A DNA stretch of 64,000 bases from positions 1,364,001-1,428,000 of the forward strand of contig NC_014762.1 of assembly GCF_000183725.1 (NCBI RefSeq), written 5' to 3'. The translations under genes were made by a program, and so were the position numbers. This document shows positions 13,987-30,853 of this stretch, piece by piece (positions within the stretch are counted from its first letter, which is position 1; each line of letters starts with the position of its first letter). The DNA comes from Sulfuricurvum kujiense DSM 16994. GTDB taxonomy: Bacteria; Campylobacterota; Campylobacteria; Campylobacterales; Sulfurimonadaceae. The notes beneath the pieces are model-generated. The model was not told the origin of the DNA and ran no database searches. It saw only the letters and a program-made list of their open reading frames with translations.

Positions 13987-15050
13987 TCTTTTTGCGTTTA
14001 GCTTTTATCCTTTCGCTTATGTTCGTTTTTTCTCAGGGAAAAACGATGGTTATTCGAAAATCATCCGATGCAATCCACCCGATTCAAACATCCATCAAAC
14101 CTGATGAATCGATTAAAATTGCCGTAGTCTCTTCTCCGAAGATAATCGGAAAATATGCACAGTCGGTTTATAACGTCGCACTGGCAACACTCTCAACCCG
14201 TCGAAGCGGCCGTTTTTCAATACAACAATATACTATGCAGGATGAATCGTCAATAACGTTGGCAGAAACGTTTGCAAAACTGCGTGAAGACAAAATGGAT
14301 GCCGTACTGGCTCCCCTTACCGGTGAAGGTGCCAAGAATCTTGTCCATATCGAGACACATCTCCCGATATTTATTCCGACCGTGCATAAGCGTGATATCC
14401 CATCAGCTCCTGATAATATCACTTTCGGAGGAATCGATTATCTGGCACAGATTGAAGCGCTGCTCCCGTATATGGCAGATTCAATTTCAATCTTTTACGA
14501 CACTTCACCGGTGGGTTCGCAACTAAAGTCATCTACCGAAGAGGTTTTTCTGGCTCATGAACGCGAAAAGAAAAAAGTCAGAAGCTACGCCGTAGACTTT
14601 AACGGTGACAATATTATTTCCCATCTTTCAAAACCTTCCCTATTTAACAAAAACAGTGTAATCCTTCATATTCCTGTTGTAAAAAGCGCTATTTTGGCCT
14701 CCCAACTCACTTTTATAGGGATCAAAGAACGTAATATTCTCTCCACACAAATCAATATGGACCCGAATCTTTTAGTGTTAACCCAATACCGAGATCGAAA
14801 AAATATGATCATCGCCAATTCTCTCGTTGAATTCCCTCCTTCGATTTATGAGGCTAATGAATTGATGAATAACGATCTTGCCTATGATTGGATTCAATAC
14901 TCCAGCAGTGTCGGAATCGATTATCTTGTCTCGATGTTAGATAATACGCCACGAGCCTATACAATGCGTCTAATTAATTCTCAAGTTATTTATCCTGTTG
15001 AGCTGTTGCATGCGAAAGAGTACGGTTTTGAATCAGTTACCTCAAAATAA
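13983..15050 (+). CDS. exported protein resembling a type-I periplasmic binding fold
   Basis: 355 residues with an N-terminal hydrophobic signal (FLRLAFILSLMFVFSQG). The mature part begins IKIAVVSSPKIIGKYAQSVYN and contains alternating strand-helix units (MDAVLAPLTGEGAKNLV, FIPTV, ADSISIFYD). The layout is like ABC-type ligand-binding or LpoA/LppC-like proteins. No ligand can be assigned. It overlaps the UDG-like gene by 4 bases and the Crp/Fnr gene by about 41 bases, so the three form one operon. Confidence 0.6.
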   Translation: MIFLRLAFILSLMFVFSQGKTMVIRKSSDAIHPIQTSIKPDESIKIAVVSSPKIIGKYAQSVYNVALATLSTRRSGRFSIQQYTMQDESSITLAETFAKLREDKMDAVLAPLTGEGAKNLVHIETHLPIFIPTVHKRDIPSAPDNITFGGIDYLAQIEALLPYMADSISIFYDTSPVGSQLKSSTEEVFLAHEREKKKVRSYAVDFNGDNIISHLSKPSLFNKNSVILHIPVVKSAILASQLTFIGIKERNILSTQINMDPNLLVLTQYRDRKNMIIANSLVEFPPSIYEANELMNNDLAYDWIQYSSSVGIDYLVSMLDNTPRAYTMRLINSQVIYPVELLHAKEYGFESVTSK

Positions 15051-15693
15051 TTCGCTTTCTCTGGAACGAATCGGAATTTTCTCCCATTTAACCCCACTAC
15101 AGTGCAATCAGATCGAACAGATCGGAATTATCCGCCATTATAATAAAGGTGAAATCATTTTTTATGAAGGGAACCAAAGCGATTATTTTCATTTTCTGAT
15201 TGAAGGGGAAGTTTCCATTTTCAAATCAACCGCCTCAACCGAGACGATGTTGATACACCGATTCCGGGCACCTTCATTGGTCGCCGAGGTCGCAACATTG
15301 AAACAAGTCCCCTACCCGGCTTCGTGTGAAGCGATAGATAGCTCAATTATTTTAAAAATTGCTCGTGATCCTTTTCTTAAACTTTTGCAGAATGATCCCT
15401 CATTGAGCATCGCCCTTATCTCCTCACTGACCCAAAAAATATCCGCATTAGAGCTCTCGCTGCAACGACACAGTGCCCCAAACGCCATGGCAAAAGTAGC
15501 GCGATTGATTCGAGATGATATCGGTATTTTTCAGCGCCTTAAAGGGATCGAAATTGCACATTTGCTTGGGATTACGCCCGAAACACTATCAAGAATGATT
15601 AAAAAATTAAAATCCGAAGGGATAATAGAATTCTCGAAAAAAAACGGTTTAAACCTTTTGTCCTCGGATAAATTAAATCGGTGTTGCGGATAA
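15010..15693 (+). CDS. Crp/Fnr-family transcription regulator
   Basis: About 227 residues. A cyclic-nucleotide-binding-like beta-barrel (about 20-135, with YNKGEIIFYEGNQSDYFHFLIEGEVSIF) is joined by a long dimer helix to a winged helix-turn-helix (EIAHLLGITPETLSRMIKKLKSEGII). There is no N-terminal Cys cluster as in oxygen-sensing Fnr, so it may sense NO, heme or another ligand. The ATG at 15010 was preferred over a TTG at 14998. The RxxxSRMIKKL recognition helix resembles Fnr/Dnr proteins. A target site is not known. Confidence 0.88.
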   Translation: MRKSTVLNQLPQNNSLSLERIGIFSHLTPLQCNQIEQIGIIRHYNKGEIIFYEGNQSDYFHFLIEGEVSIFKSTASTETMLIHRFRAPSLVAEVATLKQVPYPASCEAIDSSIILKIARDPFLKLLQNDPSLSIALISSLTQKISALELSLQRHSAPNAMAKVARLIRDDIGIFQRLKGIEIAHLLGITPETLSRMIKKLKSEGIIEFSKKNGLNLLSSDKLNRCCG

Positions 15694-17227: not shown

Positions 17228-17309
17228 TGATTAATTTTTAATCATAATATAGTATTAACAGTGAAATTTTCGCGTTACAATTATTTCAGATAAAAAAATC
17301 CTAATTAGG
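17228..17309 (+). promoter_or_regulatory. narK promoter with TGATTA-N5-TAATCA operator
   Basis: A perfect palindrome, TGATTA-ATTTT-TAATCA, occupies 17228-17244. Exactly 31 bases later is TACAAT (17276-17281). The predicted transcript begins AGATAAAA at 17288. There is no good -35, so an activator bound around -52 is likely (inference). CCTAATTAGG at 17300-17309 is itself a palindrome that covers the RBS. The layout repeats upstream of nrtA and nirE. Confidence 0.8.
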
Positions 17310-17316
17310 AGTGGAT

Positions 17317-18594
17317 ATGAAATTGGGTGAATTGAAAAAAGAGGGGCACTGGCCGTCACTGCTGGCCGCCTTCTTGTATTTCGACTTTAGTTTTATGATG
17401 TGGACGATGCTCGGACCGTTGGCGACTGAGATCAATGAGACGCTAAGTGCGGCAGGCAATGCCCTCAATGATTCGCAGATCGCGACCTTGCTGGCGCTTC
17501 CGATTATGTCCGGAGCCCTTTTACGGATTCTTCTCGGTTTCTTCGTCGATAAATTCGGACCGAAAAAGACCGCGTTGGGATCACAATTGATCGTTATTTT
17601 CACCCTCTTCTTCGCATTCATCCAATCGGATGCGATTACCTATAATCAGCTGCTGCTGGTTGCGCTCGGTCTCGGATTCGGCGGTGCGTCGTTCGCCGTT
17701 GCCCTTCCGCAAGCGGGACAATGGTATCCGCCGCGTCTTCAGGGGGTTGTTTTGGGTATTGCGGGTGCGGGAAACATCGGGGTCGTGATCGACTTTTTGT
17801 TTGCTCCTAAGATCGCTCAACTGTGGGGATGGCCATCGGTTTTTCTCGTGGGCGGAGTCCTATCAACAATCATTTTCATCGCCTATATGTTTTTGGCAAA
17901 AGATGCCCCGCTAAGCATTTATAAGCCGAACCCGAAGAGATTCAAAGACTACATGAAACTTCTAGGGGATAAAGACACCTGGTGGTTCAACCTCTTTTAT
18001 GCAGTCTCATTCGGTGGGTTTGTCGGATTTGCCAACTATATGAAAGTCTATTTGATGAACACCTATCAAAGCGATATGTCCGCTATCGGTCTGGATATTC
18101 TGAATGAAGACAATGTCAAAGTCATGGCAGGATATTTCGGAGCTCTCTGTATCTTCGCCGGGGCTGTTTTGCGTCCGGTCGGAGGGGCTATCGCCGATAA
18201 AATGGGCGGGGTAAAATCCCTCTATGTATTTTATGGTAGCATTGTAGTGTTGTCTCTGATCACGGCCTTGATCGACCTGCCGTTTTGGGCAGCGATTACG
18301 GTGATGTTTTTGATCATGGCGAATCTCGGAATGGCAAACGGTTCGGTGTTCCAGCTCGTACCGCAGCGCTTTGGTAAAGATATCGGGATTATGACCGGAC
18401 TTATCGGTGCGGCCGGAGGATTGGGCGGATCGGCTTTAATCAAAACATTCGGTTGGTCTCAGGGGGCATTTGACGGTTATGCCGCCGGGTTCTTAATCTT
18501 TGCCGGATTCGTTTTAGTGGCGATATCGGGTATCTCTCTGGTAAAAACCCGATGGAGAACGACGTGGGGTGCGACTGCAGGCGGACGGATTTAA
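17317..18594 (+). CDS. narK: nitrate/nitrite transporter of the MFS NNP family
   Basis: 425 residues with 12 predicted helices. Both nitrate signatures are present: GIAGAGNIGVVI in helix 5 and GLIGAAGGLGG near helix 11. The family moves nitrate and/or nitrite across the inner membrane. The context with assimilatory enzymes suggests nitrate import for nitrogen nutrition (NasA-type). The ATG at 17317 follows AGGAG; a GTG at 17311 is less likely. It is the first gene of a unit with the phosphatase-kinase gene. Confidence 0.92.
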   Translation: MKLGELKKEGHWPSLLAAFLYFDFSFMMWTMLGPLATEINETLSAAGNALNDSQIATLLALPIMSGALLRILLGFFVDKFGPKKTALGSQLIVIFTLFFAFIQSDAITYNQLLLVALGLGFGGASFAVALPQAGQWYPPRLQGVVLGIAGAGNIGVVIDFLFAPKIAQLWGWPSVFLVGGVLSTIIFIAYMFLAKDAPLSIYKPNPKRFKDYMKLLGDKDTWWFNLFYAVSFGGFVGFANYMKVYLMNTYQSDMSAIGLDILNEDNVKVMAGYFGALCIFAGAVLRPVGGAIADKMGGVKSLYVFYGSIVVLSLITALIDLPFWAAITVMFLIMANLGMANGSVFQLVPQRFGKDIGIMTGLIGAAGGLGGSALIKTFGWSQGAFDGYAAGFLIFAGFVLVAISGISLVKTRWRTTWGATAGGRI

Positions 18595-18605
18595 ATCCTG
18601 TATTA

Positions 18606-18624
18606 TACGGTGCATCGCACCGTA
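18606..18624 (+). promoter_or_regulatory. intergenic hairpin between narK and the phosphatase-kinase gene
   Basis: TACGGTGC (18606-18613) pairs perfectly with GCACCGTA (18617-18624) around the loop ATC. There is no T tract after it. It may mark an mRNA processing or attenuation point that lowers expression of the downstream gene relative to narK (inference). Confidence 0.55.
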
Positions 18625-18666
18625 AATATGAAATTGACAAAATCCTATATAACTTGGACTTTTAGC

Positions 18667-20307
18667 ATGCTGCAACTGCAATCCAGCGAATATATTCTTC
18701 CCAAACCCGGTTCCACAGGAGATGACGCATGCGCCTATGCCATTATCGATAATTCGCTTTTCGTATCGGTATTGTGCGACGGCGTGGGGAGCGCCAAACG
18801 CGGCGGAACCGCCGCCCGTCAGAGTGTCAAATTTTTTATCAATCAGTTCAAATCCCGTCCAAAAGCATGGGGGATTTCCAAAACGATGGAAGTCTTTACC
18901 CGCCATATCAACGGGCTCCTCTTTAAAGAGTCGATTTCCCAGTACGGGCAAATCGAACTGCTGACAACACTCTGTCTGGCAATCATCGAAGGCGAGAGCC
19001 TCTATACCCTCAATCTCGGAGATTCCCGCATCTATCTTTTGAAACAAAACGGAGAGTTCAAGCGCCTCAGTACCGATCATACGATGGATGATGAATACAT
19101 GTCGCACGTCCTGACCCAAGCCTGCGGCATGAGTGAAAACATCGATCCGAATATCGTCTCTACCCCGATCGCCGTCGGAGACACTCTGGTTTTATGCAGC
19201 GACGGCGTCTACAATCTGATCGATGAAAAAAGTTTTATGGATCTGGTACATCAGGGATTAGGATCTGCAACGATCATCAACCACGCCGCTCAAGACGGCC
19301 AACTGCACGATCGTGATGATATGAGTCTGCAGATCTTTCGTATCGAATCACTCGATCCGCTGCACGCACTCAAAAACAACGATCTTCCTATCCCTAAATC
19401 GCTGTATGAAGGTGACATTATCGACGGATATACCCTCATATCACCGATGATGGAACACCGGCGGATCTGGAAAGTGAGCAAGCAGGGGCAATTCTATGTC
19501 ATGAAATTCCCGATGCGCGCGTATGATGAACAAGCCTTGGACGAATTCGTCCGCGAAGCATGGACCGCAAAACAGATCACCCACAAAGCCTTCGGTCACG
19601 CATGGATTCCCGAAGGGCGCAGTGTCCGCTATTATATGATGGACCTCGTTGAGGGAATCAATTTAAAAGATTACGTCAAAAACCGCCCTCTCTCCATCGA
19701 CAATGCAATCGAACTCGGAAAATTTCTCCACCGAGCCGAAGCCCATCTGCTGCATCTGGGATTGGTGCACGGCGACATTAAACCCGAAAATATCATCGTC
19801 TACAAAAAGGAAGGGGAAGCGGGGGTCAATTTTAAAATGGTCGATTTCGGCTCGATTGTCGAAATTTTTTCGACCGACTCCCGAGCGGGGACCCCCTCAT
19901 ACCTTGCGCCCGAACGGTTCATCGGAGGCGTTATCAACGAATCGACCGAAATCTTCTCAATCGGAGTCACCCTCTACTGGGCTTTGAGCGGCAAACTCCC
20001 TTACGGCGAGATCGAACCGTTCCAGACTCCGACGTTCAAAACTCCCAAACGTCCGGTCAAGCTCAACAGCAATATCCCCCTCTGGCTTGATTCGATCATC
20101 ATGCGTGCCATTGCCGTTTCGCCGGAGCGTCGCTACACTCACTACTCCGAATTTTTTTATGAGCTTAAAGCGCCCGAGAAAGTCAAACCTTTCTTCAGCG
20201 ATGAGACACCCCTGATCGAGCGTTCGCCCGTCATGTTTTACAAGATCGGATTTTTTCTTGCCCTCGCTGCCGAGATTGTAACCTTTGTCCTCTATGTTTC
20301 GAAGTAG
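18667..20307 (+). CDS. bifunctional PP2C phosphatase / Ser-Thr protein kinase
   Basis: About 546 residues. The N-terminal PP2C domain (1-235) has CDGVG, LNLGDSRIYLL, LCSDGVYNL and a final HDRDDMS metal site. The kinase domain (about 250-500) has Lys280 (YVMKFP), HGDIKPEN at 368 (Arg of HRD replaced by Gly), DFG at 393 and GTPSYLAPE. A C-terminal helix (about 524-543) anchors it to the membrane. The same pairing with a nitrate transporter occurs in Pseudomonas nasA regions. Its target is unknown, NarK being one candidate. I chose the ATG at 18667 because earlier starts lie in or just after the hairpin and extend beyond the PP2C fold. Confidence 0.9.
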   Translation: MLQLQSSEYILPKPGSTGDDACAYAIIDNSLFVSVLCDGVGSAKRGGTAARQSVKFFINQFKSRPKAWGISKTMEVFTRHINGLLFKESISQYGQIELLTTLCLAIIEGESLYTLNLGDSRIYLLKQNGEFKRLSTDHTMDDEYMSHVLTQACGMSENIDPNIVSTPIAVGDTLVLCSDGVYNLIDEKSFMDLVHQGLGSATIINHAAQDGQLHDRDDMSLQIFRIESLDPLHALKNNDLPIPKSLYEGDIIDGYTLISPMMEHRRIWKVSKQGQFYVMKFPMRAYDEQALDEFVREAWTAKQITHKAFGHAWIPEGRSVRYYMMDLVEGINLKDYVKNRPLSIDNAIELGKFLHRAEAHLLHLGLVHGDIKPENIIVYKKEGEAGVNFKMVDFGSIVEIFSTDSRAGTPSYLAPERFIGGVINESTEIFSIGVTLYWALSGKLPYGEIEPFQTPTFKTPKRPVKLNSNIPLWLDSIIMRAIAVSPERRYTHYSEFFYELKAPEKVKPFFSDETPLIERSPVMFYKIGFFLALAAEIVTFVLYVSK

Positions 20308-20318
20308 CCTGAAAACAA

Positions 20319-21044
20319 CTACTTTTCAAGTATAAACAGATTGTTGCTCGGATGGCATTCAGCGATAAACCGCTCTTTGAGCTCCCGGTCAAACGTCATC
20401 AGATAAACATTTGCATTTTTGAGCGAAAGCGTTTGAAAGTGCCCCAGTAAAATATCATCGGCGACATTCTTGCCGTGATCGCATTTGGTGAAATTAAACG
20501 ACTGAAGCGTCTTTTTATAATCGTACAGATCGGCTTCCCATTGGCTTTTGTATAGATACAGAGAATCAGGGTTGGCCGCGACATAAATACGATTATCGGG
20601 AATGTCGAATTTCTCGATAACGTCGTTGAACAACGATCCGATGTTGGAAAAGTTTTCAATATCCCAAAACAGATAATCTCCGCGGTTTTGCGTCGCTTTG
20701 GACTTGTTTATCAGGGTCAGACGTTTGGAAATGTTGTAGTGGTTATGGGCAATATCATTGATTAGTTCGATCTTGTTTTTGAGTTTTTGCGCATCGGTCG
20801 TATCAAATTTCAGCACCTTTCCCAGTTCGATGTACAGCTCGATATCGGCGAGTTCCTCTCTCGCCCCACCCTTTTGATAACTCTCCAGTGCTTTGAGTTT
20901 ATAGGGGGGGAAAATAATCCCGATATTCATCGCTTTCCCCTCACCGAAAGCCCTTTTGACTTTGGCAAAGAGACGTTTCGCCTCGTCGGTATTTTCTAAT
21001 TCTATCGAACCGAAATATTTTTGATTAATTATAATTTTTTGCAC
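20319..21044 (-). CDS. NYN (PIN-like) domain protein
   Basis: About 241 residues. The second half has the acidic motifs of NYN/LabA-like nucleases: LFWDIENFSNI, then HGKNVADDILLGHF, then VYLMTFDREL. These Asp residues bind Mg2+ in the family, which cleaves RNA. The N-terminal half is helical and unrecognised. The GTG at 21044 is preferred because AAAGGG lies 5 bases upstream; an ATG at 21086 has no RBS. It converges with the kinase gene and diverges from the Rrf2 gene, inside the nitrate region but with no obvious link to it. Confidence 0.72.
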   Translation of the reverse strand: MQKIIINQKYFGSIELENTDEAKRLFAKVKRAFGEGKAMNIGIIFPPYKLKALESYQKGGAREELADIELYIELGKVLKFDTTDAQKLKNKIELINDIAHNHYNISKRLTLINKSKATQNRGDYLFWDIENFSNIGSLFNDVIEKFDIPDNRIYVAANPDSLYLYKSQWEADLYDYKKTLQSFNFTKCDHGKNVADDILLGHFQTLSLKNANVYLMTFDRELKERFIAECHPSNNLFILEK

Positions 21045-21139
21045 TTTCACCCTTTGTCGAGAATATTTTAGCATTTGATACTTCATATTTTGAGTGCTCT
21101 TTCTTTTAAGGCATCCATCTCTTATTACTGGAAGTTTTG

Positions 21140-21145
21140 TATAAT
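21140..21145 (+). promoter_or_regulatory. -10 box of the Rrf2 regulator gene
   Basis: TATAAT lies 31 bases before the ATG at 21177. It implies transcription from about 21152, which rules out the longer reading-frame starts at 21075 and 21144. The nitrate palindrome is absent here. Confidence 0.5.
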
Positions 21146-21176
21146 GCAGCTATCAGTTTCCTTAGAAGGTCCCTCT

Positions 21177-21602
21177 ATGCTCTCTTCTGCTTGTCAAGAT
21201 ACTATCCGCGCCGCCGTATGGCTCTCCACCAAAGAAATCGGAAAGTTTTATCGTATACAAGAGATCAGCGAATCGCTGGAACTGCCGTATCACTTTCTCT
21301 CAAAATCGCTCCAAAAACTGGTTCATGCGGGGATATTGGTCTCTTTGCGGGGTGCCTCGGGAGGGGTGAGCCTTTCAAAACCCGCATCGGAAATCACCCT
21401 GCTCTCGATTATCGATGCCGTAGACGGAAGCGTCTTTTTTGATACCTGCGTTTTAGGTATCGGAGATTGCGAAGCGGAAAAACCGTGCGCTTTGCATGCG
21501 CAATGGGATGTATGGCGCCAAGAGATGCTGGAGATGTACTCCGCCATGCGCCTGAGCGAGATCACCGATGACGTCATCTTGCGAAAAGTAAAACGGATTT
21601 AG
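21177..21602 (+). CDS. Rrf2-family regulator with probable Fe-S cluster
   Basis: 141 residues. The N-terminal winged helix (YRIQEISESLELPYHFLSKSLQKLVHAGILVSLRGASGGVSL) is typical of Rrf2 proteins. Cys91, Cys98, Cys104 and His107 match the IscR [2Fe-2S] ligand set (Cys92, Cys98, Cys104, His107) with one extra residue in the first gap. The NsrR and IscR branches sense nitric oxide or Fe-S status. Lying directly upstream of nrtA, it is the best candidate for reading the three TGATTA palindromes, but this is inference. The start was placed at 21177 from the RBS (AGAAGG) and the promoter. Confidence 0.87.
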   Translation: MLSSACQDTIRAAVWLSTKEIGKFYRIQEISESLELPYHFLSKSLQKLVHAGILVSLRGASGGVSLSKPASEITLLSIIDAVDGSVFFDTCVLGIGDCEAEKPCALHAQWDVWRQEMLEMYSAMRLSEITDDVILRKVKRI

Positions 21603-21640: not shown

Positions 21641-21720
21641 TGATTATTTTTTAATCAACATACTGCATAGTATTTCTAATTTTTACTCTACAATTATTTC
21701 AGACAAAATAGTCTTAATAA
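21641..21720 (+). promoter_or_regulatory. nrtA promoter with TGATTA-N5-TAATCA operator
   Basis: The palindrome TGATTA-TTTTT-TAATCA is at 21641-21657. TACAAT is at 21689-21694, again after exactly 31 bases. The predicted +1 at 21701 begins AGACAAAATAGTCT, which can form a small AGAC/GTCT hairpin. The sequence from TACAAT to the +1 (TACAATTATTTCAGA) is identical to that of narK over 15 bases. Confidence 0.82.
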
Positions 21721-21731
21721 GGAGTTTCATT

Positions 21732-23114
21732 ATGAAAAGCTTGAGTATTTTAGGAAAAGGTGCATTAGTGCTCTCTATTGCCGCCTCTATAGCCATGGCC
21801 GCACCGGAAAAAGCAAATTTGAAAATAGGGTTTATCGCCCTTACCGATTGTGCTCCGATCGTCATTGCGAAAGAAAAAGGTTTCTTTGCCAAACACGGAT
21901 TAAACGTTGATGTCGTAAAAGAAGGGGGCGGATGGGCCGGAATACAGCAAAAAGTGATCAGTGGAGAATACGACTATTCCCACGCTCTTGCCGTGATGCC
22001 GTTAGCCGCGACACTCGGTATCAGCGGAAATACACCGATGTATGCCCTCCTCTCCCTCGATTACAACGGTAATGCAATTACCTTCAGTAACGACGTAATC
22101 GATCAAATGGAAAAATACGGATTGGATTCGGTCAAACGACCGGTTACGTCTGCCTCACTCAAAAAATTGATCGATGCCAAACGTGCCGCTGAAGGATCAA
22201 AATATAAGCCTCTTGAATTCGGTATGGTATTTCCTGTCTCTACCCATAACTATGAAATTCGTTATTGGATGGCAATGAGCGGAATTGATCCGGATGCCGA
22301 TACGACGCTTAAGGTTGTTCCGCCGCCTCAGATGGTCGCGAATCTTCAAGCCGGTAATATTGACGGATATTGTGTCGGTGAACCGTGGAATGAACGGGCG
22401 GTAATGGCAAATCTAGGTTCGTCTTTGGTTACCAACTATGACATTTGGAACAATAAACCCGAAAAAGTATTGATGTCGACCAAATCATTTGCCGATAAAA
22501 ATCCGGAGACTACCCAAGCCGTCATGCAATCGATCATTGAGGCGCAAAAATGGCTTGATGCTTCTTGGGATAACCGGAAAGAGGCTTCCGCCATCCTCTC
22601 TAAAAAAGAGTATGTCAATGCCCCTAAAGATATTATCGACAATTCGATGACAGGTACATTTCAATTCCTAAAAGGAAAACCGAGTGAACCTAATCCGATG
22701 TTTAACGTCTTTGCAAACAATTATGCCGCATATCCGTTCTACAGCCACGGGATGTGGTATCTGACTCAGATGATCCGCTGGGGTCAAATCAATAAAGCGA
22801 TCGACATGAAAAAAACGGTCGAAGCGGTTTACCGTCCCGATTTGTTTGCCAAAGCAGCGAAAAGCGTAGGGTACAGCCTCCCTGCTTCACCGTGGAAAAT
22901 AGACGGTAAAGACCAATATAACAAATTTATCGACGGCAAAGTGTTTGACCCCAATCATGCCGTAGATTATATCTATGATACCAAAGTCAATCATGCCAAA
23001 GTTTCCAAAGCAGCTTTGGCCAAAGCAAATACGTGGAAAGTTAAAACACTTCAGCCGGCGTATGTATGTCCTTACGGTCCTGCAGGCTGTGCTAATCCGA
23101 AATTTATCAAATAA
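21732..23114 (+). CDS. nrtA: nitrate ABC transporter, substrate-binding protein (NrtA type)
   Basis: 460 residues with a signal peptide ending AIAMAAP. The mature part is the CmpA/NrtA/SsuA fold (LKIGFIALTDCAPIVIAKEKGFFAKHGL, GVISGEYDYSHA-like, VGEPWNERAVM). Length and the Trp-rich YPFYSHGMWYLTQMIRWGQ segment fit the nitrate/bicarbonate branch. It delivers nitrate to NrtB in the periplasm. The C-terminus carries two Cys (CPYGPAGC), which is unusual. No lipobox is evident, so it is probably soluble. Confidence 0.92.
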   Translation: MKSLSILGKGALVLSIAASIAMAAPEKANLKIGFIALTDCAPIVIAKEKGFFAKHGLNVDVVKEGGGWAGIQQKVISGEYDYSHALAVMPLAATLGISGNTPMYALLSLDYNGNAITFSNDVIDQMEKYGLDSVKRPVTSASLKKLIDAKRAAEGSKYKPLEFGMVFPVSTHNYEIRYWMAMSGIDPDADTTLKVVPPPQMVANLQAGNIDGYCVGEPWNERAVMANLGSSLVTNYDIWNNKPEKVLMSTKSFADKNPETTQAVMQSIIEAQKWLDASWDNRKEASAILSKKEYVNAPKDIIDNSMTGTFQFLKGKPSEPNPMFNVFANNYAAYPFYSHGMWYLTQMIRWGQINKAIDMKKTVEAVYRPDLFAKAAKSVGYSLPASPWKIDGKDQYNKFIDGKVFDPNHAVDYIYDTKVNHAKVSKAALAKANTWKVKTLQPAYVCPYGPAGCANPKFIK

Positions 23115-23124
23115 GGGTTGAGTT

Positions 23125-23916
23125 ATGAATTCCAATGTGTTTGAATTGGGCAAGAGGATTGTTCTTCCTCTGCTCGTACTCGTACTCATAATCGCCGGAT
23201 GGTCGGCACTATCGAGTCATGTGGAACAGTTTCCTACTCCGAGTGAAACGTACGATGTCGCCAAAGAGGTGTTCGCCGATCCGTTTTATATCAACAATGA
23301 GGATGACAAAGGGATCGGATGGCAGATACTCAACTCTCTAGAGAGGGTATTCGGCGGATTCGCTCTGGCCATTCTTGTCGGAGTGCCGCTAGGACTGTTG
23401 ATCGGGATGAGTAAAAATGCGTTTATCGCTCTCAACCCGTTTATCCAGATACTCAAACCGGTTTCACCGCTGGCATGGCTGCCTCTGCTGTTGTTTGTCT
23501 TTAAAGATATTAATTTAACTGCGATTACAACCATTTTTATCACCTCGATCTGGCCGATCATCATCAATACGGCTCTGGGTGTGAGAAGTGTAAGCGAGGA
23601 TTATCTCAACGTCGCGAAAGTGTTGCAGCTCACGCCGTTTGAAAAAGTGTTTCAGATCATTCTCCCTGTAGCGGTTCCGTTTATTTTTACGGGAATGCGT
23701 CTGTCGCTGGGGATAGCATGGCTCGTTATCGTCGCGGCAGAAATGCTCACCGGCGGTATCGGTATCGGCTTTTGGATCTGGGATGAATATAACAATCTCA
23801 ATTACCACTCGATCATTATCGGGATTGCGATTGTCGGTGTAATAGGGCTTATTTTGGATGCTATTATGGGGTTGATTGCCGATTTCTTTGATTATCGAAA
23901 GCGAGGACGAGCATGA
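23125..23916 (+). CDS. nrtB: nitrate ABC transporter permease
   Basis: 263 residues, about six membrane segments. The ABC permease EAA loop is seen as YLNVAKVLQLTPFEKVFQIILPVAVPFIFTGMRLSLGIAW. It lies 10 bases after nrtA and overlaps the ATPase gene by 4 bases (ATGA). Together they form the importer NrtABD; no separate NrtC fusion ATPase is present. Confidence 0.92.
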   Translation: MNSNVFELGKRIVLPLLVLVLIIAGWSALSSHVEQFPTPSETYDVAKEVFADPFYINNEDDKGIGWQILNSLERVFGGFALAILVGVPLGLLIGMSKNAFIALNPFIQILKPVSPLAWLPLLLFVFKDINLTAITTIFITSIWPIIINTALGVRSVSEDYLNVAKVLQLTPFEKVFQIILPVAVPFIFTGMRLSLGIAWLVIVAAEMLTGGIGIGFWIWDEYNNLNYHSIIIGIAIVGVIGLILDAIMGLIADFFDYRKRGRA

Positions 23917-24713
23917 GTGTAAAACCATTTTTAAAAATCGATCATGTCGATAAAATCTTCCCTTTGGGCGGAGGAAAAGAGTATGTCGCCCTTCGGGATG
24001 TCAAACTCGAGATTAGAGAAAATGAAATCGTTTCGATTATCGGACACTCCGGCTGCGGAAAATCGACGATTCTCAATCTGATAGCCGGCTTGGATACGAT
24101 CAGTAACGGAACCATACTGTTGGAAGACAAACATATCACGGCACCCGGACCGGAACGGGCGGTAGTCTTTCAAAACCATTCACTCCTACCATGGCTCAGT
24201 GTGTATCAAAACATCGAGATGGCCGTTCGAAAAGTATTGGGAGACGATCTGAGCCCCGGCGAGATCCGCGATCATGTGATGAAATACATCCATATGGTCA
24301 ATCTCGACCATGCGAAAGATAAATTTCCCGGTGAGATCAGCGGGGGGATGAAACAACGTGTCGGAATCGCCCGTGCACTCGCCATCGAGCCAAAAGTACT
24401 GCTGATGGATGAACCGTTCGGAGCACTCGACTCATTGACCAGGGCCAACCTGCAAGATCATTTAATGCGGATTCAGATGCAAACAGGAAATACCGTCATC
24501 ATCATCACCCACGATGTCGACGAAGCGGTACTGCTATCGGATCGGGTCATTATGATGACTAACGGACCGGAAGCGACGATCGGTGAGGTATTGGAGGTCA
24601 ATCTTCCGCGTCCCCGCAATCGTCTGGAATTACAGCATAACGAAGAGTATCTTCGATGCCGTGGTGCGATCATCGAGTTTCTCTATTCGAAATTCGCAAA
24701 AGAAGATGAATAA
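23913..24713 (+). CDS. nrtD: nitrate ABC transporter ATP-binding protein
   Basis: 266 residues with Walker A GHSGCGKST, the Q-loop (VFQNHSLLPWLSVYQNI), the ABC signature SGGMKQR, Walker B LLMDEPFGALD and the switch His in IITHDVDEA. It is the NrtD/SsuB type with no fused binding domain. It powers nitrate uptake through NrtB. Confidence 0.93.
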   Translation: MSVKPFLKIDHVDKIFPLGGGKEYVALRDVKLEIRENEIVSIIGHSGCGKSTILNLIAGLDTISNGTILLEDKHITAPGPERAVVFQNHSLLPWLSVYQNIEMAVRKVLGDDLSPGEIRDHVMKYIHMVNLDHAKDKFPGEISGGMKQRVGIARALAIEPKVLLMDEPFGALDSLTRANLQDHLMRIQMQTGNTVIIITHDVDEAVLLSDRVIMMTNGPEATIGEVLEVNLPRPRNRLELQHNEEYLRCRGAIIEFLYSKFAKEDE

Positions 24714-26078: not shown

Positions 26079-26170
26079 TGATTAAAAAATAATCATAAAT
26101 TTGATTTACTTCTCGATATTTTTGACTATTATTTTTAAAGATAAAAAAGTCTGAATAAAGACTCCAAGGA
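26079..26170 (+). promoter_or_regulatory. nirE promoter with TGATTA-N5-TAATCA operator and leader hairpin
   Basis: TGATTA-AAAAA-TAATCA occupies 26079-26095. TATTAT at 26127-26132 again follows after exactly 31 bases. The predicted +1 (26139) begins AGATAAAAAAGTCTG. AGTCT (26148-26152) can pair with AGACT (26159-26163) just upstream of the RBS AAGGA (26166-26170). Confidence 0.8.
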
Positions 26171-26177
26171 AAATAAG

Positions 26178-26954
26178 ATGCACGGAAAACTCTATTTGAT
26201 CGGATGTGGTCCCGGTGATGCCGATCTATTAACCCTCAAAGCACTTAAAACAATTCATAAACTTGATATTGCCCTGATCGACCATCTCCTCACCCAGGAG
26301 ATCATCGATCTGATCTTGCCGCACACCAAAGTGGTATTTGTCGGAAAAGAGAAAGGAAAACACAGTTTCCCGCAAGAGACGATCAACGCAATGATTACCG
26401 AATATGCCCGTCAAGGCTACACGGTAGGCCGTCTCAAATGCGGCGATCCCTATATCTTCGGCCGGGGTACCGAAGAGGCGATCTATGCCTCATCAAACGG
26501 TATAGAGACGGAAGTCATCCCCGGTATCTCCTCGGCGCTCTCAGGCCCGCTCTCGGTCGGGATTGCTCCGACTGCCCGCGGTGTCAGTACCGGGGTCTCG
26601 GTCGTATCGGCACATCTGTCCGGTGACCGGGTCAATCTCTCATGGATTCCGATGCTCGGGGTAAGCGACCATACGACGGTCGTGCTGATGGGGCTCAGCC
26701 GCATACGCCAAATCGTCAAAGAGGCGCTGGATCAGGGAATCGATCCTCATCTTCCCGTCGCCATCGTCTCCAATGCCACAACCGCGATCCAAAGCTCTAT
26801 CGTCACGACCCTCAGTGAGCTTGTCGCAACGGCCAAAGGGGCGCCTAAACCGGCGATCTTAGTGTTCGGAGAAGTAGTCAATCTATCTCAGATTCTCCCG
26901 AAATACCGTTATGAACCGAAGGAGGTATCGTATGACATCGCTCATGCAGGCTAA
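26178..26954 (+). CDS. nirE: uroporphyrinogen-III C-methyltransferase (SUMT)
   Basis: 258 residues. Family motifs are present: LIGCGPGDADLLTLKALK at the N-terminus, GRLKCGDPYIFGRG, and PGISSALSGPLSVGIAPTARG. The enzyme methylates uroporphyrinogen III twice to precorrin-2, the precursor of siroheme. It is a stand-alone SUMT without the CysG dehydrogenase-chelatase half. It heads the reductase operon and supplies siroheme for the nitrite reductase that follows. cobA is an equally valid name. Confidence 0.92.
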   Translation: MHGKLYLIGCGPGDADLLTLKALKTIHKLDIALIDHLLTQEIIDLILPHTKVVFVGKEKGKHSFPQETINAMITEYARQGYTVGRLKCGDPYIFGRGTEEAIYASSNGIETEVIPGISSALSGPLSVGIAPTARGVSTGVSVVSAHLSGDRVNLSWIPMLGVSDHTTVVLMGLSRIRQIVKEALDQGIDPHLPVAIVSNATTAIQSSIVTTLSELVATAKGAPKPAILVFGEVVNLSQILPKYRYEPKEVSYDIAHAG

Positions 26955-28842
26955 TGAAGCGCGCAGCGCCAAACGCCACAAAACCGAATCGATCAAAGAT
27001 GCCTTTAACGCAACCGAAGCGTGGGAACGGCTGATAGGCTATTCGAAAAACGGCTACGCATCGATCAGTGATGACGATAAAGATTTTGTCCTCAAAAGTT
27101 TCGGTATTTTCGACCGTCCCGCCACTCCGGAGCGTTTTATGCTCCGTGTACGGATTGCCGGAGGCGCTTTAAATGTCGAGCAGGCTACGGCACTCGCGTA
27201 TGTCGCCAAAACGTTCGGTCAAGACTACATCGATCTAACAACCCGACAGCAGATCGAACTGCGATACCTGCGGATCGAAGATATCCCCGAACTGTACAAA
27301 CGGCTCGAAGATGTCGGCCTCACGGGATATCAAACCGGAGTCGATAATTTCCGTAACATTCTCATCGATCCGCTTGATGGGTTGGCCATGGACAATATTA
27401 TTGCCTGTCGTAGTATTTTGGAAGATATTCAATCGCTCTTTTTAAAAAATCCCGACTGGATCACCACCCTCCCTAGAAAATTCAACATCGGCATCAACGG
27501 ATCCCTCTCCAACCGATGCAACATCTTCGGTCAGGACTTCGCCCTCTCGCTTGCCCAGAAAGAGGGAGTTTACGGTTTTAATCTCTATCTGGGGGGACGT
27601 GTCGGATCGTTGGCCCACACTGCCGATATGTTTGTATTGCCGAGCGAAGCACCCGAAGTGTTCGAAGCGGTAGCAACCCTCTTTAAAACCTACGGCTTTC
27701 GGGACAACCGCAACAAGAACCGTCTCAAATTTCTCATAGAAGCGGTCGGTATGGATGAGTTTCGTTCAGCGATCGAAGAGTATCTCGGGCGCCCTATGGC
27801 GCACGCGGGAGAGTCTCTAACGGCATTGGAGGGGGGCGATCATTACGGAAAAATAGCCCTAAAAGACGGATCGTTCGCCCTGTATTCGGCCGTTCCGTCC
27901 GGTGTGTTCAGCGGAAGCGATCTCTATCACGCGGCAGAAATCGCCCGATCACAAAACGGCTCAATCCGTCTGACGATCGAGCAAAATCTCATTGTCGCCG
28001 GTGTCCATGACGAAGAGAGCGCTTTGCAATCACCGCTGTTTGTCAACTATCCGAATCGCCCTTCACCGTATATGGCGAACCTCATCGCGTGCGCCGGAAG
28101 CGAGCATTGTCCTTTCGGTGTTATACCCGGCAAGCCTGATGCCATCACTATGAGCGAATATCTCGCCTATACCGTGCCGATCGAAGATGCTAAAATCCGC
28201 CTCTATTGGTCGGCCTGCATCAAAGGGTGCGGTGTTCACGGAGCGGGAGATTTGGGATTCGTCGGATGCAAAGTCGCTAAAGGGGGCAAAACAATGCTGG
28301 GGGTCGATATCTTTATCGGCGGAACCCTCAGCGGCGAGGGGGGAGAGGGGCATCTTTTGCTCAAAGGGGTTATCCTGGATGAGGCGAAAGAGTACGTTGC
28401 CGAGTTAATGCGTGAGTATCGCGATCTTAAAACGGACAAAGAGAATCTGGAACGTTTTATCCGACGGTTACAGCATCGATACAGCAACTATGCGATCGGG
28501 TTTGTAATGCAATGGAATCGCCTCATGGAGCAACATTCGCTCGAAGCAAAACTCCGTTTTAATCTTAAAACGCACGGCGGAAGTCATAAAGAGCCCGATG
28601 AGATTTACCATTTCGGTTTGGCACTGGTCCATTCGATGACCAAAAGCAAAGCCTATGACGTCGAAGACCCGTTTGCCGAGGGGAAAAAACCGTATCTATT
28701 TGATACCGCATCGTTGGACGTATCTTATCGCCCCTATAAAGAGATTATCGAAAAAATGCTCCATCCCAACCCGATGCTTCGGTATCAGGTTTTTACCGAA
28801 ATCGTCAGCGACATCGAGAAAAAGCTCCATGAAAACGGATAA
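26932..28842 (+). CDS. nirA: siroheme nitrite reductase (ferredoxin-type)
   Basis: 636 residues with two ferredoxin-like halves of the nitrite/sulfite reductase family. Cluster and siroheme ligands are Cys387 and Cys393 (CAGSEHC) and Cys429 and Cys433 (CIKGC). It catalyses the six-electron reduction of nitrite to ammonium in the cytoplasm. The start at 26932 follows a perfect AAGGAGG; an ATG at 26911 lies upstream of that RBS. It overlaps nirE by 23 bases. A sulfite reductase role is less likely given the nitrate context. Confidence 0.9.
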   Translation: MTSLMQANEARSAKRHKTESIKDAFNATEAWERLIGYSKNGYASISDDDKDFVLKSFGIFDRPATPERFMLRVRIAGGALNVEQATALAYVAKTFGQDYIDLTTRQQIELRYLRIEDIPELYKRLEDVGLTGYQTGVDNFRNILIDPLDGLAMDNIIACRSILEDIQSLFLKNPDWITTLPRKFNIGINGSLSNRCNIFGQDFALSLAQKEGVYGFNLYLGGRVGSLAHTADMFVLPSEAPEVFEAVATLFKTYGFRDNRNKNRLKFLIEAVGMDEFRSAIEEYLGRPMAHAGESLTALEGGDHYGKIALKDGSFALYSAVPSGVFSGSDLYHAAEIARSQNGSIRLTIEQNLIVAGVHDEESALQSPLFVNYPNRPSPYMANLIACAGSEHCPFGVIPGKPDAITMSEYLAYTVPIEDAKIRLYWSACIKGCGVHGAGDLGFVGCKVAKGGKTMLGVDIFIGGTLSGEGGEGHLLLKGVILDEAKEYVAELMREYRDLKTDKENLERFIRRLQHRYSNYAIGFVMQWNRLMEQHSLEAKLRFNLKTHGGSHKEPDEIYHFGLALVHSMTKSKAYDVEDPFAEGKKPYLFDTASLDVSYRPYKEIIEKMLHPNPMLRYQVFTEIVSDIEKKLHENG

Positions 28843-30853
28843 TATCACCTTAACGGGCTGCCCGTTTTGCGGAACGGGATGCGCACTCTCTGTCGAGTGC
28901 AATGAGAACGGATACAAAGTCAAAGGGGATAAAACCAACCCCTCGACCCAAGGGGATCTGTGTTTCAAACCGATTCAGATGGCGAAAGCCCTCGATGCTC
29001 ACCGCCTGACTTCCCCGCTTTATCGCTCGGATAAGACAAAACCTTTTCAGGAAATATCGTGGGATGAAGCAACCGCCCTCCTCGCCCAAAACATTTCCGA
29101 TCTTCCCAAAGAGGCACTCTACTTTTATCTCTCAGGGCAGCTTCTGAGCGAGGAGAGCTATCTCTTTACCAAACTGATCAAAGGGCATTTGGGAACCAAC
29201 AACGTCGACGCGAACTCCCGCCTTTGCATGGCAACCGCCGTCGTCGCCCACAAAATGGCGTTCGGAAGCGACGGTCCGATAGGCAGTTACGCCGATATCG
29301 ACGATGCCGATGCCATTATCATCAGCGGCTCCAATCCCGCGTGGGCGCATCCGGTCATCTTCCGTCGGATACTATCACGTAAAAAAGCCCATCCCGAGAC
29401 AAAAATCATCGTCATCGATCCGATCTATACCGAGACGGCCGAAAAAAGCGATCTGTGGATCGGTCTCTCTAGCGGAAGCGATACGACCCTTTATAACGCC
29501 CTCTTAGCCGAGCTCTATCGACGCGGTGCATGTGATACCGTTTTCATCGATCGCGCGACCGAAGGGTTCGAGCAAACCGTATCTGCAGCCATGGATATCT
29601 CTTTTGCCGATTCCGTCGCCTCCTGCGGACTCTCTTTGAACGATGCCGAATCACTGGTCGAACTCTTTGCATCCGATAAAAAGATACTGGGGTTATGGTG
29701 TCAGGGACTTAATCAGGCACATGATGGCGTCATGCGAAATCTCGGTTTCATCAACCTCTTTTTAGCCACGGGGCGTTTAAATGCCCAAAAAGGGCTACCC
29801 CTTTCCCTTACCGGTCAGCCCAACGCGATGGGAGGACGGGAAGTCGGATATCTCTCCAACGCCCTGCCGGGATACCGTGATGTCCGCAACGGCGATGATC
29901 GAGCCGTATGCGAAGCGTACTGGAATCTTCCGTTACATACGATTGCCCCTACTCCCGGTATCACTATTACCGATGCGATCGATGCCATAGCCGCCGATCA
30001 AATCCGATTTTTGTGGGTCGCCTGCACCAATCCTCTCCTCACCCTTCCCGACGTGAAAAAAACACAGAGTGCCCTCAAAAATCCGAACCTTTTTTTGGTT
30101 GTCCAAGACTGCGTCCTCAGCGAAACGGCATCGCTTGCCAATCTCGTCCTGCCGACACTATCATGGGGAGAAAAAGAGGGGAGCATGACCAACTCGGAAC
30201 GTTTTATCAAACGCTTGCGCCCGTTTAAATCCGGCCCTGAGGGAGCCAAAAGCGACATTGACATTATTTGCAGCGTAGCGCAGAAACTGGGATTTGAGGG
30301 ATTTGACTATCACGGGGCAGAAGCGATCTATAACGAGTATAAAGCACTTACCGAGGGGCGGTTATGCGATCAAAGTAACCAAGCGTATGAATCGCTCTCA
30401 TTCCAATGGGGAGGGGAGCGTCTCTATGCGGATGAACATTTCGCCACACCGACGTGCAGAGCCCAGTTTCATCCTATCCTCTCCTCGGCCCCTCAGCGGG
30501 ATAAAGATACGTTTGTCCTGATTACCGGCCGAACCAAAAAACAGTGGCATACGATGACCCGTACCGGGCAGGTTGCCGAACTTTTAAAAGAGGAAGAATA
30601 CCCCTATCTTTTGATGAACGCCGAGGAGGGGGAAGCGTTGGGGATATACGAGGGGGAGCCTGTAATCATCACCAACCACTTAGGCTCGCTCGAGCTTCCG
30701 GTACGGTTCGGGAAACTGGCACCGAATCATCTGTTTGCCCCGTTCGGCTATCCGGAAACTCCGATTAATACACTGGTTCCGGTAAAAAACGATCCGTTTT
30801 CATCCCAAAGTGCACTCAAATCCGCTCGTGTAACACTTCATTCGTCTTTTTGA
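28829..30853 (+). CDS. nasA: assimilatory nitrate reductase catalytic subunit
   Basis: 674 residues of the Mo-bis-MGD oxidoreductase family. A [4Fe-4S] site is formed by Cys11, Cys14, Cys18 and Cys45. Cys133 in NSRLCMATAV is the expected Mo ligand. The C-terminal dinucleotide-binding domain includes LITGRTKKQWHTMTRTG. There is no Tat signal, so it is cytoplasmic, as in NarB/NasA. It reduces nitrate to nitrite for NirA. The ATG overlaps the nirA frame by 14 bases; a longer frame from 28655 is an artefact inside nirA. Confidence 0.92.
   Translation: MKTDNITLTGCPFCGTGCALSVECNENGYKVKGDKTNPSTQGDLCFKPIQMAKALDAHRLTSPLYRSDKTKPFQEISWDEATALLAQNISDLPKEALYFYLSGQLLSEESYLFTKLIKGHLGTNNVDANSRLCMATAVVAHKMAFGSDGPIGSYADIDDADAIIISGSNPAWAHPVIFRRILSRKKAHPETKIIVIDPIYTETAEKSDLWIGLSSGSDTTLYNALLAELYRRGACDTVFIDRATEGFEQTVSAAMDISFADSVASCGLSLNDAESLVELFASDKKILGLWCQGLNQAHDGVMRNLGFINLFLATGRLNAQKGLPLSLTGQPNAMGGREVGYLSNALPGYRDVRNGDDRAVCEAYWNLPLHTIAPTPGITITDAIDAIAADQIRFLWVACTNPLLTLPDVKKTQSALKNPNLFLVVQDCVLSETASLANLVLPTLSWGEKEGSMTNSERFIKRLRPFKSGPEGAKSDIDIICSVAQKLGFEGFDYHGAEAIYNEYKALTEGRLCDQSNQAYESLSFQWGGERLYADEHFATPTCRAQFHPILSSAPQRDKDTFVLITGRTKKQWHTMTRTGQVAELLKEEEYPYLLMNAEEGEALGIYEGEPVIITNHLGSLELPVRFGKLAPNHLFAPFGYPETPINTLVPVKNDPFSSQSALKSARVTLHSSF

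Follow-up and report, generated by a model that had tools for sequence, protein, structure and literature searches.

We propose that nitrate assimilation in Sulfuricurvum kujiense is controlled through two promoter elements, E1 and E2, and that the second is the predicted operator of a pathway-specific Rrf2-family regulator. In this reading, to which we give a probability of roughly 55%, the cluster-loaded form of the regulator would repress the pathway at E2 and be relieved by NO. Observed directly are the two elements, their fixed spacing, the sets of genes downstream, conserved ligand residues, synteny, and the NO-related gene neighbourhood of relatives. The mechanism would operate as follows. 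E1, about 50 bp upstream of the transcription start, would be bound by a general nitrogen activator, rather than by the Rrf2 protein. At E2, over the transcription start, an Rrf2 dimer would bind and block transcription. We infer that this requires an Fe-S cluster, held by C91, C98, C104 and probably H107. NO, from nitrate and nitrite reduction, would damage the cluster and release the genes. With an activator at E1, and an NO-released repressor at E2, full expression should require both nitrogen hunger and a sign of nitrogen oxides.

The regulator is encoded by the forward strand, at positions 21177-21602 of the 64,000-nucleotide stretch of the S. kujiense DSM 16994 genome that was analysed (the window). 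The open reading frame specifies 141 amino acids and was assigned using Pfam, orthologue alignment and fold matches. Its ATG start is preceded by a ribosome site, AGAAGG, at 21164-21169, and a putative -10 element, TATAAT, at 21140-21145. Both domain score and fold place the protein in the Rrf2 superfamily. Briefly, it scores 86.9 bits against Pfam Rrf2 (PF02082; E=1.7e-24, cut-off 30) and 83.3 bits against TIGR00738 (cut-off 73.3). The solved folds nearest to its AlphaFold model are those of RsrR, CymR, IscR and NsrR. The pLDDT of the model is 81.6, and is lowest at residues 94-97, within the Cys loop. Residues C6, Q7, D8, C91, C98, C104 and H107 are unchanged in 24 of 24 sequences (orthologues, 72-100% identity). 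Since C91, C98, C104 and H107 are invariant, the Cys/His set is not a chance occurrence. Hence, the open reading frame with a Cys-Cys-Cys-His set, described in an earlier note on this DNA, is real.

The earlier note also equated these residues with the ligands of IscR (C92, C98, C104 and H107; PMC5411485). The overall fold and the presence of three Cys plus His resemble IscR. The spacing, however, is C91-x6-C98-x5-C104-x2-H107, compared with C-x5-C-x5-C-x2-H in IscR, so the first gap is one residue longer. Similarity to NsrR is also limited, with an equivalog score of 34.3 bits against a cut-off of 182. Note that Asp8 is known as a cross-subunit cluster ligand only for S. coelicolor NsrR (PMC5411485). 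On alignment with E. coli NsrR, the Asp8 position is occupied by the invariant Gln7, between Cys6 and Asp8 of our protein. We rejected D8 as an NsrR-like ligand because it aligns with Tyr9, not with Asp8 of NsrR.

The Rrf2 gene is embedded among forward-strand genes for nitrate assimilation (nas). A narK-type MFS nitrate/nitrite transporter gene (17317-18594; Pfam MFS_1, start set at an ATG behind AGGAG) is followed by one encoding a fused PP2C phosphatase and protein kinase (18610-20307; Pfam and synteny). Next after the Rrf2 gene are nrtA (21732-23114), for the nitrate ABC transporter binding protein (Pfam NMT1_2), then nrtB (23125-23916) and nrtC (23913-24713), assigned by position and sequence. 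Further downstream, and recognized using Pfam, are cobA (26178-26954), for sirohaem synthesis, nirA (26911-28842), for an assimilatory nitrite reductase with two 4Fe-4S/sirohaem halves, and a narB-type assimilatory nitrate reductase gene (28823-30853; Molybdop_Fe4S4, Molybdopterin). A conserved 255-residue protein, with no Pfam match, is encoded at 20319-21086, divergently from the Rrf2 gene; many relatives also encode it among their nas genes.

Orthologues of the regulator, with 72-85% identity, were detected in 23 of 36 Sulfuricurvum genomes sampled. Among 397 Campylobacteria genomes, none were found outside Sulfuricurvum at 1e-25, except paralogue-like matches, and, Sulfuricurvum aside, a species-wide contig scan brought up a single distant protein, from Marinimicrobia. 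In every Sulfuricurvum genome whose contig shows the surroundings, the gene is in the nas cluster. It directly follows the PP2C-kinase gene of a narK-pp2cK pair in several relatives (gap of ~13 nt), follows a PDC-like gene (2-nt gap), or precedes nrtABC, just upstream of nrtA. The PDC-like gene encodes a membrane protein of 285 amino acids with no Pfam match over cut-off (L084:8145-8999, L076:10104-10958). In some members of the genus it shares an operon with the Rrf2 gene, and it is a possible sensor partner. Taken with the invariant ligands, the constant location agrees with the earlier suggestion that an Rrf2 regulator of Fe-S type is linked to nitrate assimilation.

We found E2 by aligning the promoters of narK, nrtA and cobA from different Sulfuricurvum genomes. 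Absent from the earlier note, it is a better candidate for the Rrf2 operator than E1, the palindrome TGATTA-N5-TAATCA. The E2 core, MAGAY-N6-RTCYK, is ~5 nt past the -10 hexamer, over the expected transcription start. Sites overlapping +1 are typical for repressors. At narK, E2 (CAGATAAAAAAATCCT, 17287-17302) follows the -10 element TACAAT (17277-17282). The copy at nrtA (CAGACAAAATAGTCTT, 21700-21715) is just after TACAAT (21689-21694), and that of cobA-nirA-narB (AAGATAAAAAAGTCTG, 26138-26153) is after TATTAT (26127-26132). All three promoters also have an exact copy of the E1 palindrome, ~30 bp before the -10 element and at a fixed distance: TGATTAATTTTTAATCA for narK (17228-17244), TGATTATTTTTTAATCA for nrtA (21641-21657) and TGATTAAAAAATAATCA for cobA (26079-26095). 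E1 and E2 are 42 bp apart in 3 of 3 window promoters, and separated by 40-43 bp in other genomes. As the earlier note had it, the Rrf2 gene lies between the E1 palindromes of narK and nrtA and lacks the palindrome itself. Neither E1 nor E2 was found in its own upstream region in the window, and autoregulation via either element there was rejected.

E2 is largely confined to nas promoters. For Rrf2-bearing genomes, 50 of 63 such promoters have a perfect match, 11 have one mismatch and 2 have two; 61 thus have no more than one. The reversed pattern, applied to the same stretches, always had at least two mismatches. E2 was found at 0 of 28 E1-bearing glnA, amtB, amt2 and PDC promoters, where the best fits had 3 to 5 mismatches. 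This set comprised 5 glnA, 8 amtB, 9 amt2 and 8 PDC promoters, less two of the latter that were dropped (doubtful assignment, >170 bp). The promoter of the PDC-RRF2 operon has E1 and no E2. Genome-wide, a 22-bp E2 allowing one mismatch or fewer identified mostly nas genes (narK, nrtA and cobA); reversed-pattern controls returned about 0. Downstream of E1 at nirA in other genera, E2 is absent.

Three further observations concern the distribution of E2. The sole clear non-nas copy in the S. kujiense genome is near-perfect, lacks E1, and precedes a SOD-like gene (TTAAAGACAAAATAGTCTTAAT; L147:8752-8773, on the 118-kb contig C1). It is behind an NnrS-like gene and ~5 kb from an NO-linked Rrf2 paralogue, and it counts against our proposal. 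In another genome (G003), an SOD-like gene is divergent from nrtA. A dCache chemoreceptor-like gene of S. kujiense (L061:790-3003) has E1-like and E2-like sites upstream, with a spacing unlike that of nas promoters, and perhaps belongs to the nitrate regulon. Finally, the nrtA promoters of G026 (L065) and G437 (L230) carry a second perfect or near-perfect E2, upstream of E1 and ~80 bp from the first. Such pairs might accommodate two dimers acting together.

Position, pattern of loss and layout together make it likely, but not certain, that E2 belongs to the Rrf2 protein. Among Rrf2-less genomes with nas genes, G429, G033 and G005 have lost or degraded the E2 of narK, and G018 that of cobA. Comparing genomes of at least 85% completeness, E2 with one mismatch or fewer was present at 61 promoters and missing from 2 where Rrf2 was encoded, against 3 and 4 in Rrf2-less genomes (two-sided Fisher p = 0.0005, a value that overstates the case because the promoters share descent and the E2 pattern came from the same set). 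We conclude that E2 tends to decay where Rrf2 is lost. The counterexamples are Rrf2-less G005, with a perfect E2 at nrtA and one mismatch at nirA, and G033, which keeps E2 at cobA. These could reflect recent loss of Rrf2 or a different binding protein. The latter would fit a reading in which E2 serves another factor, or the mRNA leader, and Rrf2 is merely a neighbour, its target set being drawn from context only. We think this unlikely: E2 erosion tends to accompany Rrf2 loss, and no second conserved DNA-binding gene was seen in the nas cluster among the orthologue neighbourhoods. An RNA hairpin was rejected, since the E2 arms fold weakly for nrtA, do not fold for narK or cobA, and tolerate C-A mismatches at narK.

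The case for NO as signal comes from relatives with the same ligand spacing, C-x6-C-x5-C-x2-H. Their gene neighbours concern NO metabolism, but those of the nas Rrf2 protein concern nitrate. A Sulfuricurvum paralogue with this motif adjoins norQ/norD/norE, NnrS or globin genes (named from sequence). Other relatives with the motif are near ric, truncated haemoglobin and nosZ genes in Tunicatimonas, hmpA in Hymenobacter and, in a further Campylobacterota genome (L160), genes resembling norB. A more distant Deinococcus relative, in which the motif is broken, is also next to hmpA. On this basis NO is the favoured signal, and its mention in the earlier note was plausible. A tree groups the nas Rrf2 branch with the relatives sharing the motif, but supports are 86/87 (below 95) and branches are long, which leaves the precise order of branching uncertain. 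The E. coli IscR, NsrR and rhizobial RirA references in this tree were checked by their family scores.

Upstream of the NO-linked paralogue there is a conserved palindrome, CTAY-N6-RTAG. E2 is absent from this promoter. A longer form, TACTAY-N6-RTAGTA, occurs upstream of paralogues at L147, L155, L157, L190, L194, L195, L198 and others, and is a candidate operator for them. Both palindromes have a 4-N6-4 layout, with Y and R flanking the gap. The nas Rrf2 protein and the group with its ligand spacing (from Sulfuricurvum nor/NnrS/globin loci, Bacteroidota hmpA/ric loci and Marinimicrobia) form neighbouring tree branches, and the Sulfuricurvum paralogue shares the operator layout. The group differs in its target genes and half-sites, and has only 30-40% identity to the nas protein. 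Two of these points count against our proposal: the half-sites of E2 (AGAY) differ from those of the NO paralogue (CTAY), and the NO signal is read from the neighbours of relatives this divergent.

The Rrf2 protein might instead bind E2 and report Fe-S or iron supply, as IscR or RirA would, so tuning a pathway that is costly in Fe-S clusters. The IscR-like combination of three Cys with one His (ligands in PMC5411485), and the Fe-S enzymes encoded by narB and nirA (Pfam), are consistent with this. However, the IscR equivalog scores are 56.8 bits, far under the cut-off of 207.55, and 43.1 against 275. Conserved neighbourhoods of the Rrf2 gene contain no iron or isc/suf cluster-assembly genes, and this, like the different predicted operator, separates the protein from IscR. 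A holo-repressor would also release Fe-S-demanding genes at times when clusters are short. With relatives that share the motif adjoining NO genes, we consider the iron reading improbable, at about the same level as a foreign binder of E2.

Alternatively, the protein could bind E2 and answer nitrate or nitrite, directly or via the PDC-like or kinase/phosphatase partner. It would then be a pathway inducer switch, its Cys/His set holding a structural cluster or metal. Operon-like pairing with a sensor-like membrane protein (2 nt) or PP2C-kinase (~13 nt) favours such a switch, but the operon partner differs among species and we know of no Rrf2 protein that binds nitrate. We regard this as still less probable.

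The remaining candidate operator is E1. The earlier note spoke of three operators and treated the palindrome as a possible Rrf2 site. In fact, exact E1 with an A/T gap occurs nine times in the S. kujiense genome, with none for the reversed control. Beyond the window (L059, L060, L061, L062 and L063), sites precede glnA, a guanidine-type ABC operon, a porin gene and a dCache chemoreceptor gene, and others lie ahead of and between the glnK/amtB genes. E1 is in all Sulfuricurvum genomes sampled, even those without Rrf2 or nas genes (G009, G015, G016, G021, G034 and G036), and upstream of some nirA genes in other genera that have no Rrf2 orthologue. Hence, although E1 is in promoters flanking the Rrf2 gene on both sides, and the Rrf2 operon itself begins at an E1 promoter in some species, binding of Rrf2 to E1 is very improbable, given its occurrence at glnA, glnK/amtB, guanidine-type and other operons and where Rrf2 is missing. 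From the same distribution, E1 seems to serve general nitrogen control in Sulfuricurvum and in certain other Campylobacterota; its distance to the -10 element is constant, at ~30 bp. A Crp-type gene (15010-15690), considered for the E1-binding factor, is not conserved beside nas genes. Two Guanidine-I riboswitches lie downstream of E1 in S. kujiense, at L059:3110-3202 (ABC transporter operon) and L060:2789-2881 (porin). Guanidine use thus appears subject to a riboswitch as well as to nitrogen control.

Our preferred reading, NO-relieved repression at E2 by the Rrf2 protein, has a parallel in Bacillus subtilis. There, nitrogen control of nasDEF is reportedly exerted by TnrA, to go by the title of a 1998 paper from Nakano. 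The same assimilatory nitrite reductase genes are repressed by NsrR, an Rrf2 NO sensor (PMC8139620). The logic of pairing a nitrogen-control site with an Rrf2 site would be shared. The components differ: the Sulfuricurvum protein has C-x6 spacing, Gln at the Asp8 position and His at 107, and its candidate operator is even-symmetric and covers uptake plus both reductases. The NsrR operator, given as gATGyAT-N5-ATrCATc in PMC1274295, has odd symmetry, and E2, which is even, does not fit it, a further point against our reading. The same paper places nsrR of Rhodobacter capsulatus E1F1 in a nas cluster, near hcp; this resembles the location of our Rrf2 gene, although the passage concerned describes no E2-like operator. 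Orthology of the two regulators is not expected because the NsrR score is low.

More tentatively, and with rather less than even odds, there may be a separate class of Rrf2 sensor, defined by C-x6-C-x5-C-x2-H and even-symmetric 4-N6-4 operators. One branch would gate all Sulfuricurvum nitrate promoters, downstream of a Campylobacterota nitrogen activator, so that nitrogen hunger and NO or nitrite are needed together. Our literature search found no published account of nitrogen-assimilation control in sulfur-oxidising Campylobacterota such as Sulfuricurvum, and no Rrf2 regulator of nitrate assimilation for Sulfuricurvum or its class. Two testable operators result: E1, for general nitrogen control, and E2, the likely Rrf2 site. 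The logic of Bacillus NsrR at nasDEF would extend to an unrelated group that uses a different branch of Rrf2 proteins and an operator of different shape. The promoters described here point to where denitrification products and assimilation may be coupled.
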